From assembly GCF_000550805.1 (NCBI RefSeq), contig NZ_CP004353.1:372001-436000 (forward strand): 64,000 nucleotides of DNA. Reading direction: 5' to 3'. The first letter of the stretch is position 1, and each line of letters opens with the position of its first letter. The notes beneath the pieces were generated by a model that was not told the DNA's origin, did no database searches, and was given only the letters and a program-made list of their open reading frames with translations. The position numbers were made by a program, and so were the translations under genes. Positions 12,161 to 20,603 of the stretch are shown piece after piece. Origin of the DNA: Corynebacterium vitaeruminis DSM 20294. GTDB lineage: Bacteria; Actinomycetota; Actinomycetes; Mycobacteriales; Mycobacteriaceae.

Positions 12161-12196
12161 GTAATTCATCCCCGTTGTGTGAAGGAAGATCTCCCC

Positions 12197-13210
12197 ATGG
12201 CTTCGAACAATGACTTTGGTATCCTGCGCCGCCCGCGTCGGCTGCGCACGTCCGCGGTGATGCGCGACTTCGTCGCCGAGACGAGCCTGCGCCCGGCGGA
12301 CTTCATCCTGCCGATGTTTGTTGCCGAGGGCATCGACGCCCCGCGCGAGATCCCCTCCATGCCGGGAGTTTTCCAGCACACCATTCCCTCGCTCATCGCG
12401 GCCGCCCGCGAGGCCCGCGACCTGGGCATTCGCTGCATCGACCTGTTCGGCGTCCCGCTGGATGAGAATAAGGACGCCACCGGCTCCCAGGCGTGGGACC
12501 CGGAGGGCATTCTCAACAAGGGCCTGGCGGCCCTGCGCGCCGAGTTCGGCGACAGCCTGCTCATCATGGCGGACACCTGCCTGGACGAGTTCACCGACCA
12601 CGGCCACTGCGGCGTGGTGAGCATCAACTCCCGCGGCGTGGCCGTGGTGGACAACGACGCAACCCTGCCGCTGTACCAGAAGATGGCCGTGTCCCAGGCC
12701 ACGGCGGGTGCGCACATCGTGAGCCCCTCCGGCATGATGGACGGCCAGATCCTGGCCATCCGCGAGGCCCTCGACGAGGCCGGCTACCAGGATGTGGCCA
12801 TCATGGCCTACTCCGCGAAGTACGCCTCTGCCTTCTATGGACCCTTCCGCGACGCGGTTGGTTCCTCCCTCGAGGGAGATCGCCGCACCTACCAGCAGGA
12901 CCCGGCGAACCTGCGCGAGTCCCTGCTCGAGGTGGAGCTCGACGTGGAGGAGGGAGCGGACTTCGTCATGGTCAAGCCCGCCATGCCGTACCTCGACGTC
13001 CTCAGCGAGGTCGCCCACGAGTCGCCGGTGCCGGTCGCGGCCTACCAGGTCTCCGGCGAGTACGCGATGCTTCAGGCCGCGGCCGCCCAGGGCTGGCTCG
13101 ACCTGGACGCGGTCATGATGGAGTCGCTGACCGCCATCAAGCGCGCGGGCGCGGATCAGATCCTCACCTACTTCGCGGTCGAGGCCGCCAAGAAGCTGCA
13201 GGGTAAGTAG
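12197..13210 (+). CDS. hemB: Delta-aminolevulinic acid dehydratase (porphobilinogen synthase)
   Basis: A 337-residue enzyme condensing two 5-aminolevulinates. The two active-site lysines are in [19 protein letters not shown] and [12 protein letters not shown]. The metal-site segment [16 protein letters not shown] has two Cys flanking an Asp, a mixed zinc/magnesium-type site. ATG 12197 follows AAGGAAGATCTCCCC. It lies 36 nt after hemD and 3 nt before the next membrane-protein gene, so it is likely part of one transcript running through to the P-type ATPase homolog. Confidence 0.97.
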
Positions 13211-13213
13211 CGG

Positions 13214-13723
13214 ATGGAGAAGACGTCCGTTCCCGAGTCGCTGCGGCAGGCGGTGTGGCTGTGGTACGCCGTCATCGGGCTCGAGGTGGTGCACCAGGGT
13301 CTCAACGTCGCGATGACGCTCATGAACAAGGCCGTGGCCCGCGAGCAGATCAAGCAGGCGCTGACCGGGGACCAGAGCTACTCCGACGGGTTCATCAACG
13401 CCACGATCACGCTGGGGACGGCGGTCTCCGCGCTCATTGCCCTGGCGATCCTGGGCGGGGTGTACTACCTCGTCCGCTCGCTGCGGGAGGGGACGAAGTC
13501 CGCGGGCATGGCCCAGCGGGTGCTCATCTACTTCGCGGTGTACTTCGCGCTGCGGGCGCTGTTCCTGTTCGTGAGCAGCCCCGATTCTAACCTGCCGGTC
13601 GCCCTTTACGCCGTGGACGGCTGCATCCAGATCGTCATCGGCGCGGCCGCCGCGGTGGCGGCGTATCTGTCGATGAACAAGGATGCCGTGGAGTGGCTGC
13701 TGAAGACCGCGCCCAAGCCCTAA
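13214..13723 (+). CDS. Four-helix membrane protein of unknown function
   Basis: A 169-residue protein with about four predicted membrane helices (roughly residues 11-35, 60-86, 97-118 and 128-155) and short loops. There are no enzyme motifs. It begins 3 nt after the hemB stop codon, so it is almost certainly in the heme transcript. M. tuberculosis also has small membrane proteins (Rv0513, Rv0514) directly after hemB, which supports a conserved though unexplained link with heme synthesis. Confidence 0.78.
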   Translation: MEKTSVPESLRQAVWLWYAVIGLEVVHQGLNVAMTLMNKAVAREQIKQALTGDQSYSDGFINATITLGTAVSALIALAILGGVYYLVRSLREGTKSAGMAQRVLIYFAVYFALRALFLFVSSPDSNLPVALYAVDGCIQIVIGAAAAVAAYLSMNKDAVEWLLKTAPKP

Positions 13724-13814
13724 ACGGGTGGCGTTGATTCGGCACAATTCGCCTGCGAAAATGGTTGCTGGTACATTGCTTCGACGTCCGTTGTCAGAAA
13801 ACCCGAGGATTCCT

Positions 13815-14282
13815 ATGCCCAGCATGTTCCCCTCGCCCCTCCGCGGCGACGCGGGCTCGCCCACGCCCGCCGACCCCAGCGCCAAGCCGAAGGCGCTCCT
13901 GGTCGCCTACTACCTCGCGGTGGCCTCGGCCATCGTGCTGATCCTGTCCGGCCTCGTGCTGTTTACCACGCAGGCGCCGGGCGGGGCAGATGCGGAGATG
14001 GTGCAGGCGGTGTCGCGCAACCAGCGGTTCATGGCGATCGTCAACATCGTCGGCGGGCTCATGATCGCGGCGCTGGCCTCGCAGTTCCACCAGGCGGGCA
14101 GGGTGACCAGGCGCGTGTACCTGGGGCTTGTCGTGGTGCTCATCGCGCTCAACCTCATCGCCGTCATGCTGCGCGTGGGCGGGTTGGTGCTCATGATCAT
14201 CGCCCTGATGCTGGCGCTGAGTGCGATGGCCTACTTCCAGCAGACGGTAAGCGCCTATATCGACCACCGAGTGAGGTCCTAG
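13815..14282 (+). CDS. Small membrane protein of unknown function
   Basis: A 155-residue protein with a polar N-terminus followed by four hydrophobic segments, the last two (VYLGLVVVLIALNLIAV and LMIIALMLALSAMAYF) close together. No known motif was recognised. Start ATG 13815 is preceded by CCGAGGATTCCT. The in-frame extension to 13728 lacks a ribosome-binding site. The next gene starts 5 nt downstream, so the two are probably co-translated. Confidence 0.72.
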   Translation: MPSMFPSPLRGDAGSPTPADPSAKPKALLVAYYLAVASAIVLILSGLVLFTTQAPGGADAEMVQAVSRNQRFMAIVNIVGGLMIAALASQFHQAGRVTRRVYLGLVVVLIALNLIAVMLRVGGLVLMIIALMLALSAMAYFQQTVSAYIDHRVRS

Positions 14283-14287
14283 CACCA

Positions 14288-16954
14288 ATGCCGGAAACCC
14301 CTGACCTCCCCTCCGCCCCCCGCGCGCTCGACGGATCGGACCAAAAAGAGCTCGACGAGGTCATCGTCAGCGCGAAGAACGCCGCGGCCAAGGCCGGAAT
14401 CGATACCGGCACGATGCGCGCGATCACCGGGTTCCGGCGCAAGCCCGCCGCGGACGAGGACGACTCCAGCGCCCCCGAGGGCAAGACCTCCTTCGCCTTC
14501 GAGCTGAAGAACCTGCCGAGCGCCTCCTCCATCGAGGAGGTCGAGAACGCGGTCAACGAGCTCGACGACGTCGACGTGCGCATCGTCTACCCCTCGGCCT
14601 TGGCCTGGGTGACGGCCGGGCGCTCGGTCGACCCGACGACCATCCAGGACGTGTTCGCCCGGTTTGGCATCACGGCCACGCTCACCGACTCCTCGCTGCG
14701 GCGGCGGCTGGCGTGGTCGGACGTCGAGGAGCGGCGCTACGGCCGGTCGGAGCGGCGCCACTTCCGGCGCAGCCGCGCGCACGGCATCTCCGCCCGCCTG
14801 CGCAAGCAGCTGGAGGACGACGAGCGCGCCAACGAGCAGGCCAGGCAGTCCGGGTTCATGGACAAGGGCAGGGTCGTGCACAAGACGCCGACCGCCCCCT
14901 CCGACGTTCTGTTTACCGCGCGCAGCCTGCTCACCCGCTCGCGGTTTATCGTGAGCTTCCTGCTGAGCATCCCGGTGCTGCTGATCAGCTTCTACCCGAG
15001 CCTGCAGTTCGACTACTGGCAGTGGGTGCTCATGCTCGTGAGCATGCCGGTGGTGTTCTACGGCGCGTGGCCGTTCCACCGCGCGACGCTCGGCGGGCTG
15101 CGGCGGAAGATGTCGGCGCTCGACTCGGCCAGCTCGGCGGCGGTGCTGCTCGCGTGGTTCTGGTCGGTGGCGATGATCGTGTTCACCTCGGTGGGCGATC
15201 CCACCTACCGGGCCAACCCGCAGTGGGTGTTCGTGGACCCGACCCGCTTCAAGGACGGCGCGCTGTTCTTCGACGTGGCCTGCGGCATGACGGTGCTGCT
15301 CGTCGGCGGGCGGCTGTTCTCCCGCAAGACCAGGGCCAGCTACCTCGACGTGCTCGACCGCTACCGCCTCGATCCCACCTCGCTCGTGACCGTGGTGCGC
15401 AAAAACCGCAAGACCGGCGAGGTGAAAAAGGAAGACAAAGCGATCCAGAAGCTCAACGTCGGCGACGACGTCATCGTCGGCCCCGGCGAGATCATCCCCG
15501 TGGATGGTTCGGTGATCGGCGGCTCCTCGCAGATCGACGCCACCGCGCTGGGCATCTCGCCCTACACCGCGAAGGTGCACTCTAAGGTCTACGCGGGCTG
15601 CATCAACGAGACCAAGACGCTCAAGATCCGCGTCCACAACACCGGCCATCGCACGTGGCTTGCGGCCATCTACCGTTGGGTCGAGTCCGCGGCCGTGCAC
15701 CAGAACGTCTCCGACGCGCTGGCCACGAAGACGGCCAGCATGCTTGTGCCCATCTCGATGATCGTCGCCGCCTGCGACTTCGCCCTGTGGGCGCTCTTGA
15801 CCAACAACCCCAACCAGGCGTTTGCCACCGCGCTCGCCGTCCTCGGCTGCGTGGCGCCGGTCGCGCTGGCCATGTCCGCCTCGCTGGCCACCCGCCAGGG
15901 CATCGAGGCCGCCGCCAAGCGCGGCGTGCTCATCAACGAGGGCGAGGACGTGCGCGCGCTCGACGAGATCGAGACGGTGATCTTCAACCGCGTGGGCACG
16001 CTCTCCGAGGGCGAGATGTCGGTGGAGACCGTCACCGCCGACCGCGGGGAGAACCCCGAACTGGTCATCCGCGTGGCGGGCGCGGTGGCGCTGGAAAGCG
16101 ACCACCCCGTGTCCAGGGCGCTCATCAGGGCCGCGCGCGAGTCCCGCGACCAGTCCGCCGACAAGTCCATCCCCAGCTGGATCGAGGCCTCCCACTTCCG
16201 CTTCGACGAGGACGGCAACTTCCACGCCATGGTGGAGCTGCCGATCACCAACGGCAACGGCGAGACGGAGGTCCGCAGCGTGGAGGCCCTGCTGTGGCGC
16301 CCGCGCAACCTGGCGCAGCTCGACGGCCGACTCGCGGCCGCCGCTGTCTCGGGCGGCACGCCGATCGTCGTGCGCTGGAAGGGCAAGGACCGCGGCGTCA
16401 TCACCCTGTACGACCACGCCAAGGACGACGCCAACGAGGCCGTCGACGAGCTGGAGTCGATGGGCATCGAGACGATGATGCTCTCCCGCGACACCTACCC
16501 CGTGGCCCGCCGCTACGGCGACTACGTCGGCGTGTCCCACGTGCTGGCCGGCATCCAGCCCGGCGACAAGCCGCAGACCGTGCGCTCGGTGCGCTCCCAC
16601 GGCGTCAACGTCGCCCTCGTCGGCGACACCTCCGTCAACGAGTGCTTCCGCGTGGCCAATCTCGGCATCCTCATCGGGGCGATGCAAAGCATCGAGAACC
16701 CCAGCGCGCTCGACCACCCGAAGTGGGACATCGTCCTGCTCGAGGGCAACGTCGCGCCGATCCCGTGGCTGTTCCGCTTCGGCCGGAAGCTCTCGCGTCT
16801 CGTGCGCAACAACATGGCCTTCGCCTGGGCATACAACGGCATCGCCGTGGCGCTGGCCTGCGCCGGGCTCTTGCACCCGATGATCGCGACCGTGGCCATG
16901 CTCGCCTCCTCGCTCATCATCGAGCTGCGCTCGAAGATGGCCAGCACCTACTAG
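14288..16954 (+). CDS. Catalytically degenerate P-type ATPase homolog (P1B-like pseudoenzyme)
   Basis: An 888-residue protein with the layout of a heavy-metal P-type ATPase: an HMA-like N-domain without the CxxC (FELKNLPSASSIEEVENAV), membrane helices, actuator and nucleotide regions. PGEIIPVDGSVIGGSSQID and the HP motif (ESDHPVSRALIRAA) are kept. The phosphorylation motif DKTGT reads FNRVGTL, with Asn567 for the essential Asp (codon AAC, 15986-15988). TGES reads LGIS. The membrane CPx is CVAP. GDGxND is GDTSVNE. It cannot use the normal phospho-Asp cycle. It sits between hemB and hemE, so a regulatory or scaffold role linked to heme or metal is possible (inference). Confidence 0.85.
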   Translation: MPETPDLPSAPRALDGSDQKELDEVIVSAKNAAAKAGIDTGTMRAITGFRRKPAADEDDSSAPEGKTSFAFELKNLPSASSIEEVENAVNELDDVDVRIVYPSALAWVTAGRSVDPTTIQDVFARFGITATLTDSSLRRRLAWSDVEERRYGRSERRHFRRSRAHGISARLRKQLEDDERANEQARQSGFMDKGRVVHKTPTAPSDVLFTARSLLTRSRFIVSFLLSIPVLLISFYPSLQFDYWQWVLMLVSMPVVFYGAWPFHRATLGGLRRKMSALDSASSAAVLLAWFWSVAMIVFTSVGDPTYRANPQWVFVDPTRFKDGALFFDVACGMTVLLVGGRLFSRKTRASYLDVLDRYRLDPTSLVTVVRKNRKTGEVKKEDKAIQKLNVGDDVIVGPGEIIPVDGSVIGGSSQIDATALGISPYTAKVHSKVYAGCINETKTLKIRVHNTGHRTWLAAIYRWVESAAVHQNVSDALATKTASMLVPISMIVAACDFALWALLTNNPNQAFATALAVLGCVAPVALAMSASLATRQGIEAAAKRGVLINEGEDVRALDEIETVIFNRVGTLSEGEMSVETVTADRGENPELVIRVAGAVALESDHPVSRALIRAARESRDQSADKSIPSWIEASHFRFDEDGNFHAMVELPITNGNGETEVRSVEALLWRPRNLAQLDGRLAAAAVSGGTPIVVRWKGKDRGVITLYDHAKDDANEAVDELESMGIETMMLSRDTYPVARRYGDYVGVSHVLAGIQPGDKPQTVRSVRSHGVNVALVGDTSVNECFRVANLGILIGAMQSIENPSALDHPKWDIVLLEGNVAPIPWLFRFGRKLSRLVRNNMAFAWAYNGIAVALACAGLLHPMIATVAMLASSLIIELRSKMASTY

Positions 16955-17013: not shown

Positions 17014-18078
17014 ATGACTGCCAAGCGCCGAACTCTCCACAACGCCCCCATCCTCGACGCTGCGCTGGGGCGCACCCCCTCCCGCCGCCCCGTCTGGTTC
17101 ATGCGCCAGGCGGGCCGCTCGCTGCCGGAGTACCGCGAGGTCCGCGAGGGGATCGGCATGCTGGAGTCCTGCTTCATGCCCGAGCTGCTCGCCGAGATCA
17201 CGCTGCAGCCGGTGCGCCGCCACGACGTCGACGCGGCCATCCTGTTTTCCGACATCGTGGTCCCGCTCAAGGCCGCGGGCGTCGCAGTGGAGATCGTCCC
17301 GGGCCGAGGTCCGGTGATGGACAAGGCGATCGAAAGCCGTCAGGACGTCGACAAGCTGCCAATGCTCGAAGAAGACGTTCCGGAAGTGGCGGCGGGCATC
17401 GAAATCATCCTGGGCGAGCTGAGCGATTCGCAGACGCTCATCGGCTTCGCGGGCGCGCCGTTCACGCTGGCCTCCTACCTCGTCGAGGGCGGGCCGAGCA
17501 AGAACCACGAGAAGACCAAGGCCATGATGCACGCCGAGCCCGAGACGTGGCACGCGCTCATGCGCCGGCTCACGCCCACCATTATCGCCTTCCTCAAGGC
17601 GCAGATCGCCGCGGGCATCGACGCCATGCAGCTGTTCGACTCGTGGGCGGGCTTCCTCACCGAGCGCGACTACCGCGACCACGTCCTGCCGTACTCGACC
17701 GAGATCCTTGCCGCGCTGGCGGAGGACGGCATCCCGCGCATCCACTTCGGCGTGGGCACCGGCGAGCTGCTCGGCGCGATGAGCGAGGCGGGCAGCGAGG
17801 TCATGGGCGTGGACTGGCGCGTGCCGCTCGACCGCGCGGCCGAGCGCATCGCCGCGGCCTCGGGGCCGCGCGCGCTGCAGGGCAACCTCGACCCGGCGAT
17901 GCTGTTCGCGGGCGAGGAGGTCGTGGCGAAGGAGGTCGCGCGCATCTGCGCCGAGGCGGACGCGGCGATCGCCGCGGGGACGGCCACCGGCCACATCTTC
18001 AACCTCGGCCACGGCGTCTTGCCGCACACCGCGCCGGAGGCGATCACCCGCGCCGTGGAAATCATCCACGAGCACTAG
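17014..18078 (+). CDS. hemE: Uroporphyrinogen decarboxylase
   Basis: A 354-residue TIM-barrel enzyme converting uroporphyrinogen III to coproporphyrinogen III. The substrate-binding N-terminal signature is RRPVWFMRQAGRSLPEYREVR, and AAILFSDIVVPLKAAGVAVEI and LIGFAGAPFTLASYLVEGG are family-typical. The C-terminal GHIFNLGHGVLPHTAPEAI is also clear. It begins a unit with hemY, separated by 27 nt with AAAGAAGGG before the hemY start. Its promoter overlaps a palindrome shared with hemA. The mRNA may be leaderless. Confidence 0.97.
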   Translation: MTAKRRTLHNAPILDAALGRTPSRRPVWFMRQAGRSLPEYREVREGIGMLESCFMPELLAEITLQPVRRHDVDAAILFSDIVVPLKAAGVAVEIVPGRGPVMDKAIESRQDVDKLPMLEEDVPEVAAGIEIILGELSDSQTLIGFAGAPFTLASYLVEGGPSKNHEKTKAMMHAEPETWHALMRRLTPTIIAFLKAQIAAGIDAMQLFDSWAGFLTERDYRDHVLPYSTEILAALAEDGIPRIHFGVGTGELLGAMSEAGSEVMGVDWRVPLDRAAERIAAASGPRALQGNLDPAMLFAGEEVVAKEVARICAEADAAIAAGTATGHIFNLGHGVLPHTAPEAITRAVEIIHEH

Positions 18079-19530: not shown

Positions 19531-20487
19531 TTAGTGGTAGACGCGGGTGACTTTTCCGTTTTGTCTGGTCAGGTGCCCGTAGCGTGGTGGGGCGTTGGGG
19601 TTATCGTCGTTGACACCGTTGTGGTAGTTGCAGCAGGTGGCTAGGTTGCTGCTTGTGGTGTGTCCGCCGTGGTGCCAGGCAACCAGGTGGTGGATCTGGC
19701 ATTCGTCGGCGGGGGTGGTGCATCCGTCCCAGGCGCAGGTGGGGTTGTCCACTGTGGCGAGGATGCGCTGCTTGGTGTTGGCAAACCGCTGGGTGCGTAC
19801 GAGGTCGACGGGGCCAGCTACAGGGTGGGTGAGCGCAAACCCCCAGGTTTCGTCCAACTCCATGTTGGCTATTTGGGTGCTGGTGCGGATGACCCCGTCG
19901 CTGCAGCAGAAGGTGGTTTCGTCTTTGGTGCCGTCTAGCACTTTCGTGGTGTGGTCTAGGGGGATGACGACGATGGGGCGCAGCACGGTGCTCACCCCAC
20001 CACGGGTGATGGTGTCGCGGAGGGCGGTTGCGGGGTCGCGGGTGTGTTTGAACGGGTCGTAAAGTTGCGCGATGGTGGCTGCGGGTCCGGTGAACGTCAC
20101 GGACCAGACCTGGTTTTTGCGTCTGGTGATTCTAGCCCCGGTTTTCGGTGGTGGGGTGGCTGGTAGTAGGGCGCGGCCTGCTGCGTGAATGTGGTCGACG
20201 TCGCCTACCATGCGGGCAAGGGTGAGCCGAAAGGTGTGGCGTGCGCCGGTGGGGAGGCGGCGGGCGAGTTTTTCGATGACCTGGATGGTGGCTAGGCCGT
20301 GCCCGTTTTCTTCGAGGGCGGCCGCGAGGTGGCCGCGGGTGTAGATGGGGGCGAGGTCTGTGAGTTCGCGGGCGTAGGTGGCTGGTATTCCGCGGGCTGT
20401 CAGGCTGGCGACGCTGGCCCCGGTCACGGCGCGCAGGAGGGCGACGGGGTAGGTGAAGGCGGCGGCGAACGCGTCGATCGGATCCAT
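19531..20487 (-). CDS. DUF222 / HNH endonuclease domain protein, copy A
   Basis: A 318-residue protein beginning MDPIDAFAAAFTYPVALLRAV. The N-terminal two thirds are DUF222 (the 13E12-repeat family of actinobacteria). The C-terminus is an HNH nuclease domain: CAWDGCTTPADECQIHH, then GGHTTSSNLATCCNYHNGV, with paired Cys and His for zinc and the HNH metal site. Start ATG 20487 is preceded, on its strand, by TAGCGT and 7 nt, a leaderless layout. The product appears identical to copy B at 29124-30080. This family spreads as multicopy dispersed repeats; its role is unknown. Confidence 0.9.
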   Translation of the reverse strand: MDPIDAFAAAFTYPVALLRAVTGASVASLTARGIPATYARELTDLAPIYTRGHLAAALEENGHGLATIQVIEKLARRLPTGARHTFRLTLARMVGDVDHIHAAGRALLPATPPPKTGARITRRKNQVWSVTFTGPAATIAQLYDPFKHTRDPATALRDTITRGGVSTVLRPIVVIPLDHTTKVLDGTKDETTFCCSDGVIRTSTQIANMELDETWGFALTHPVAGPVDLVRTQRFANTKQRILATVDNPTCAWDGCTTPADECQIHHLVAWHHGGHTTSSNLATCCNYHNGVNDDNPNAPPRYGHLTRQNGKVTRVYH

Positions 20488-20603
20488 GAGCCTCACGCTA
20501 CAAACACTCGGCTGCGCGCGCGAGCGTAGCCGAGCACGCCTGTGGATAACCCCACTTTTCGTTGACACGTCACCACGAGTTATCCACAGGCCGCCTGCTT
20601 TAG

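Follow-up and report, generated by a model that had tools for sequence, protein, structure and literature searches.

A very probably inactive P1B-type ATPase homologue, probably retained for a different job, in the heme gene cluster of Corynebacterium

Genes of the heme locus

The window, the whole stretch of DNA analysed here, comprises 64,000 nucleotides of the genome of Corynebacterium vitaeruminis DSM 20294 (2.93 Mb, single contig). It holds a heme gene cluster with the order hemA, hemC, hemD, hemB, M1, M2, the ATPase homologue (hereafter the pseudo-ATPase), hemE, hemY, hemL, a phosphatase-family gene, and thioredoxin-like and CcdA-like genes; the names hemA, hemC, hemD, hemY, hemL and CcdA were given from sequence and order. 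hemB (porphobilinogen synthase, 12179..13210, + strand) matches PF00490 and NF006762 above cut-off, as does hemE (uroporphyrinogen decarboxylase, 17014..18078, + strand) for PF01208 and TIGR01464. Between them lie two small membrane proteins, M1 (13214..13723, + strand, 169 aa) and M2 (13815..14282, + strand, 155 aa), followed by the pseudo-ATPase (14288..16954, + strand, 888 aa). The M2 reading frame as listed (13728-14282) begins too early, the likely start being the ATG at 13815, where the conserved start MPSMFP is found. An HNH endonuclease-like gene (19531-20520, - strand, PF01844 at its cut-off) lies antisense between hemY and hemL; across the 72 loci with both genes the distance between them ranges from nothing to about 5 kb, and the gap resembles an insertion hotspot.

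The first-pass annotation had described the placement between hemB and hemE with two small membrane proteins correctly, and the position is very stable. hemB was found in 79 of the 80 member loci with long flanks, and in 79/79 the pseudo-ATPase gene follows it downstream in the same orientation. The heme gene that comes next is hemE at 66 of these loci and hemL at 12, with none in the fetched stretch of the remaining one. The loci with hemL next include L119, L127-L129, L133 and L140; in those viewed, neither hemE nor hemY turned up in the flanking sequence fetched.

M1 belongs to no Pfam family. Its AF2 model (pLDDT 89.7) consists of four long helices and has no significant fold match in the PDB (best E 0.17), and its invariant polar residues are Glu24, His27, Gln28 and Arg114 (23 aligned sequences). 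M1-like proteins are encoded in 71 of 201 family genomes and in 14 of 31 genera, Corynebacterium included, and went undetected in the other 130 genomes. Among the 55 genomes of other genera with M1, 22 were checked for hemB and 21 matched; in all 21, M1 is directly downstream of hemB on the same strand, within 250 bases in 20 and at 1,052 in one. BLAST gave no M1 in seven outgroup loci, and a profile comparison placed M1 after hemB in one of the seven (93% probability). M1 is likely the older companion of hemB and is a candidate heme-pathway membrane protein, as yet unnamed. Since it adjoins hemB in other genera, the ATPase probably joined a hemB-M1 pair that was already there. A fusion with M2 or with a heme enzyme, which would link them physically, was looked for in the ten longest N-terminal extensions and in five long database proteins, and none was seen.

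Fold and motifs of the pseudo-ATPase

The gene is a single open frame of 888 codons, intact and without stops in the window, as had been claimed. The E1-E2_ATPase and HAD hydrolase domains of Pfam score above cut-off, and Pfam and comparison of the AF2 model with PDB structures give a P1B membrane layout with A, P and N domains. Fourteen NCBIfam models matched, of which only the general P-type model TIGR01494 passed (108 vs 62.3); the heavy-metal, Cu and Cd pump models remained below cut-off (283/346, 227/397 and 198/314 bits). The AF2 model, built from an alignment of 85 proteins, fits 7r0g_A and the ATP7B mutants 7xun and 7xuk at 2.9-3.4 A and the E2P form 4bbj at 11.7 A; the fit to other E1 structures is poorer (8q74, 5.0 A; 8q73, 8.3 A). 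7r0g_A is an E1 form, and the modelled conformation gives a weak indication of the resting state.

At residues 566-572 (15983..16003, + strand) the sequence FNRVGTL replaces xDKTGTL, and both Asn567 and Arg568 are invariant. In the homologue alignment of 140 rows (the window protein and 139 loci, one row being gapped at Asn567) the Asp position is Asn and the following Lys is Arg in 139/139 rows with residues there. The same pair is present in all 120 database proteins listed (119 by pattern, P0079 by alignment); these are the best 120 of 204 matches, overlap the genome set and include the window's own protein (P0002). No orthologue with an intact DKTG at the catalytic position was found among the 139 homologues with residues or the 120 database proteins listed, the single DKTG string among the latter being elsewhere in P0082. 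A string count gave no Asp within -2 to +4 of Asn567 in any of the 140 rows. The Asn567 change is thus not confined to one strain; it is genus-wide and no local mutation.

The A-domain loop 418-428 (15539..15571, + strand), which in pumps carries the TGE for dephosphorylation, is not conserved, with 122 distinct 9-mers in 140 rows and a mean conservation of 0.36 vs 0.78 in canonical ATPases, and is free to vary. TGE occurs in 4/140 rows and is absent from the window protein, which has LGIS at 421-424. GDTSVNE (779-785, 16622..16642, + strand) replaces GDGxNDxP; GDGxND, the Mg site of pumps, is found in 0/140 rows, and its Asn782 and Asp783 are kept in 0/135 homologues. LSRD (732-735, 16481..16492, + strand) replaces LTGD, with Arg734 at 1.00 where the canonical Gly stands at 0.98. 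The other motifs placed in the window protein are PGEIIPVDG (399-407) and ESDHP (603-607). All of the motifs quoted in the first-pass annotation, namely Asn567 in FNRVGTL, LGIS, CVAP, GDTSVNE, PGEIIPVDG and the HP motif, read as given there. Its statement that every catalytic motif is lost is a little too strong: HAD Lys761 (138/139), Asp735, Gly779, Ser604, His606, A-domain Asp406 (140/140) and most of Asp780 (126/138 rows with a residue) are retained, as are Gly570 and Pro524 (139/139 each) and the few TGE strings. Three pumps from the same genome (L001-L003) served as controls and have DKTG, GDGND, TGE and CPC, CPG or TPC, which indicates that the method detects such motifs where they exist.

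A joint comparison was made of 135 homologues with 65 canonical P1B ATPases. The latter had been pre-filtered for DKTG, so that Asp and Lys score 1.00 there by construction; before filtering 65/68 had the motif, and the three without it belonged to the pseudo-ATPase family. Five loci (L060-L064) were left out as fragments or split matches, of which L062-L064 later proved full-length. In this comparison 56 positions are lost (canonical letter in ≥93% of pumps and <30% of homologues) and 53 are gained as near-invariant new letters, including Asn567, Arg568, Arg734, Trp670, Cys332, Arg273, Trp464 and Tyr737. The CxxC, the Cu-entry residues, the CPC cysteines, the TGE Thr, the N-domain Glu, the GxG, the TGD Gly and the ND of GDGxND are each kept in ≤5% of homologues, and the M4 Pro, M5 Tyr-Asn, M6 Met, HAD Lys, Ser604 and His606 are retained. 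Positions 278, 345 and 480 are the Cu-entry positions, by the roles given to them in the LpCopA literature.

In M4, CVAPV (521-525, 15848..15862, + strand) occupies the CPC site of pumps, with Pro524 kept and both Cys lost (cysteines kept in 1% and 0% of homologues; a CP-type M4 string in 1/140 rows). The CVAP at 521-524 had been equated with the membrane CPx. The string is present, but since the canonical CPC aligns to A523-P524-V525, Cys521 is no remnant CPx cysteine; the position is Cys in 40/139 rows with a residue. The HMA-like domain (66-132, 14483..14683, + strand) has the beta-alpha-beta-beta-alpha-beta order by AF2/DSSP and no Pfam HMA match. It is without CxxC, as the first reading had it: both Cys are lost in 135/135 rows, and no CxxC occurs in the 120 database proteins listed (best 120 of 204). 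Charged helices (134-187, 14687..14848, + strand; Arg139 invariant) are inserted between this domain and the first membrane helix. Judged from these alignments, the loss of soft-metal ligands argues against metal transport by the pseudo-ATPase.

The nucleotide pocket is also altered. In the N-domain segment 601-607 (16088..16108, + strand) His606 is kept and the canonical Glu601 falls from 1.00 to 0.00 of homologues. At 642-646 (16211..16225, + strand) the GxG of pumps has become xGxF, with Gly642 falling from 0.97 to 0.03, Gly644 from 0.98 to 0.01, and Phe645 almost invariant among homologues. In LWRP (669-672, 16292..16303, + strand) Trp670 (0.97) replaces a canonical Gly (0.92). In the P1B literature this Gly, Glu601 and the GxG are assigned to the nucleotide pocket. 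The loss of Glu601 and GxG together with Trp670 should therefore block the canonical adenine site.

Regional conservation was compared in redundancy-reduced sets of 85 homologues and 45 pumps. Near-invariant positions number 17 in homologues vs 7 in pumps in the N-domain, and 15 vs 7 in the MB platform. Conservation is lower in homologues than in pumps in the A-domain (0.55 vs 0.70), M4 (0.71 vs 0.84), M5 (0.55 vs 0.76) and M6 (0.68 vs 0.81), a pattern that relaxed constraint would also give.

Distribution, selection and origin

Among 242 Corynebacterium genomes, 207 matched at the 1e-60 cut-off and 185 carry the pseudo-ATPase (E ≤1e-117; tally from the genus match table). The 57 genomes without a detected member comprise 22 with ordinary pumps only (1e-60 to 3e-82) and 35 without a match. 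Across 401 family genomes, own genus included, no comparable match was found outside the genus, where the best (3e-88) is at the ordinary-pump level. One database member, P0072, is filed as Staphylococcus chromogenes; the other listed matches with a named organism are all Corynebacterium, so the record is probably contaminated or misnamed.

The median dN/dS is 0.147 (range 0.05-0.21) over 26 of 28 disjoint locus pairs with usable dS, and 0.113 for HemB; frames were taken stop to stop, so that some 5' noncoding sequence is included for both genes. Full-length frames are present in 137/139 homologous loci, the other two being from genomes 88% and 77% complete. Five matches (G108, G113, G018, G143, G163) were flagged with one in-frame stop; their extracted frames are 869-1014 aa long, so that the stop falls outside them. 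The earlier view of a pseudoenzyme under selection is well supported by the genus-wide altered motif, the low dN/dS and the 53 new near-invariant residues.

In a FastTree phylogeny with 44 canonical pumps, the 21 members included group in a single clade (stem 0.97 changes/site, support 100); the tree output labelled three pseudo-ATPase members canonical by mistake. A species tree was calculated with FastTree from HemB, HemD and HemL of 113 Corynebacterium and 7 outgroup loci, and has several weak nodes. Gene absence was examined in 40 of the 57 genomes; the tree includes 39 of these 40, L275 having no HemD match. The earliest branches have the gene, which is absent from one clade of 34 sampled genomes and from five other genomes in three further places; the fewest-changes count is 5, matching one gain and four losses. 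No pseudo-ATPase match was found in the 40 absent loci, where BLAST found M1 nearby in 37, M2 in 29 and hemE in 39. Most likely the ancestor of Corynebacterium gained the gene once, and several later losses left hemB and hemE in place. Entire clades have the heme genes but not the pseudo-ATPase, so heme synthesis does not require it, and its repeated loss would mean that it tunes rather than enables the pathway. An ORF of 668-711 aa after hemB in three outgroup loci, a candidate on account of its size, was rejected as a homologue, having no match; it reads as a secreted hydrolase in two loci and is probably a spurious frame in the third.

Other genes were tallied in genomes with and without the pseudo-ATPase. 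The heme-uptake protein HtaA occurs in 18/40 genomes without and 20/40 with the gene (no link), CopD in 80/80 (no link with gene presence), and CydA (cytochrome bd) in 17/40 with the gene, plus two partial, vs 9/40 without. These are raw tallies that ignore phylogeny, and for this reason no conclusion is drawn from them.

Proposed role and comparison with known systems

The defining feature of P-type ATPases is a single Asp that becomes phosphorylated. The pseudo-ATPase has the features of a pseudoenzyme as far as sequence and prediction tell: it is homologous to an enzyme family, has lost catalytic residues, keeps the fold and is under purifying selection. From its sequence it is very probably an inactive pump retained for a different job. 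The best-fitting reading is a non-pumping scaffold or receptor acting with M1 and M2, since pocket and platform have been rebuilt and show conservation, not decay; the whole explanation, tuning of heme included, is given a probability of about 0.5. A CopA-type copper ATPase gene would have arrived in the hemB-M1-M2 locus of the Corynebacterium ancestor, by copying or by a move, and there have turned non-pumping, keeping the full predicted P1B fold. We infer that neither a phosphorylation cycle nor copper movement would be possible for such a protein, which would be held in a single E1-like shape. It would offer two binding surfaces for a ligand or protein, a rebuilt head (Asn567-Arg568, Arg734-Asp735, Lys761, Trp670, Phe645) and a positive platform at the membrane edge (His264, Arg265, Arg272, Arg273), mostly inherited from pumps. 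M1 and M2 are its probable partners, and heme or porphyrin handling at the membrane may be tuned or organised, the step being guessed from gene order. More tentatively still, and on balance doubtfully, an entire P-type ATPase may have become, in this one genus, a membrane receptor or scaffold that serves heme synthesis or hand-over, its catalytic pocket becoming an invariant ligand site (Asn567, Arg568, Arg734, Asp735, Lys761, Trp670), together with M1 and M2. The regulatory, sensory or scaffold role first suggested is plausible by elimination. A role in heme or metal handling had been suggested from the locus. The gene position is stable and is the basis from which the heme part is guessed, but the protein is not required for heme synthesis and the ligand losses speak against the metal part.

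Four other explanations were weighed. Decay to a pseudogene or a sequencing artefact would fit the loss of nearly all canonical motifs and the several losses of the gene, but it is rejected, and was held to be extremely improbable, on account of the full-length frames, the dN/dS and an Asn-Arg pair present without exception; a sequencing error restoring the motifs is likewise contradicted by DKTG in 0/139 homologues with residues there and GDGxND in 0/140 rows. It is unlikely that the protein continues to transport by a mechanism that needs no Asp phosphorylation, as a channel, a carrier or by unconventional use of ATP, as claimed for ERMA/TMEM94. Membrane positions of pumps are indeed kept (Pro524, Tyr849, Asn850, Met871, and position 329, still acidic with Asp for Glu), but all three presumed Cu-entry positions and the CPC are lost. 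ERMA was reported to take up Mg despite degenerate motifs, yet it keeps the Asp, and D427N abolishes uptake according to the part of PMC13322241 consulted, whereas Asn is fixed in the pseudo-ATPase.

Slightly less credit is given to a nucleotide sensor, in which the change of Asp to Asn would allow binding of ATP or ADP without turnover and the energy state would be reported to heme enzymes. In other pumps, mutants with Asn in place of the Asp bind ATP tightly, and His606, Ser604, Lys761, Asp735 and Gly779 are kept; against this stand the loss of Glu601 and both GxG glycines and the Trp670 found in 97% at a pocket Gly, given the presumed roles of these residues. The protein might instead act as a regulator together with an active copper ATPase of its own cell, or donate copper to the assembly of cytochrome oxidase; this reading was judged improbable. 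The relationship to CopA-type ATPases, a CopA-like paralogue with DKTG and CPC in the genome (L001), the thioredoxin-like and CcdA-like genes downstream and the somewhat commoner CydA where the gene is present are in its favour, while the missing CxxC in the 120 database proteins listed (best 120 of 204) and the lost CPC are not. Moreover, the part of PMC3140484 consulted names CtpV and CopB as copper ATPases of C. glutamicum and, within the heme locus, gives hemL and later genes as induced by copper.

In the portions of the literature available, C. glutamicum hemE (cg0516) is described as strongly targeted by HrrA (PMC7337898) and hemB expression as unchanged with hrrA repression (PMC6160403). 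The portions seen of PMC7764795 and PMC1382209 do not mention the pseudo-ATPase gene, and a search of the open-licence literature yielded no paper on the protein. The names given to database members include 'Copper-exporting P-type ATPase A', 'heavy metal translocating P-type ATPase', 'cation-translocating P-type ATPase' and 'HAD family hydrolase'. The copper-exporter name of several entries is probably wrong, and naming as a copper exporter or heavy-metal pump probably misleads metal-resistance inventories.

Among known systems, the CopA-type P1B-1 copper ATPases (7r0g, 3rfu and the paralogue L001) have the motifs that the pseudo-ATPase is without, i.e. DKTG, GDGxND, CPC, CxxC, Cu-entry Met/Glu/Asp, GxG and a conserved TGE, and lack its extra N-terminal helix and charged helices. 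M1 of other family genera shares the locus but is not an ATPase. ERMA/TMEM94, a eukaryotic ER protein, resembles the pseudo-ATPase in its P-type architecture and in the loss of TGES and GDGxND, and its solved structures were reported to have a nucleotide pocket closed to ATP; it differs in keeping the Asp (DKQGI), in the reported movement of Mg2+, in its 10 membrane helices and in being eukaryotic (PMC13322241, in the part consulted). With a genus-wide change of Asp to Asn, lost metal ligands and strong selection, the pseudo-ATPase suggests that a P-type fold can be retained for another job, and would provide a tractable bacterial case alongside eukaryotic ERMA/TMEM94.
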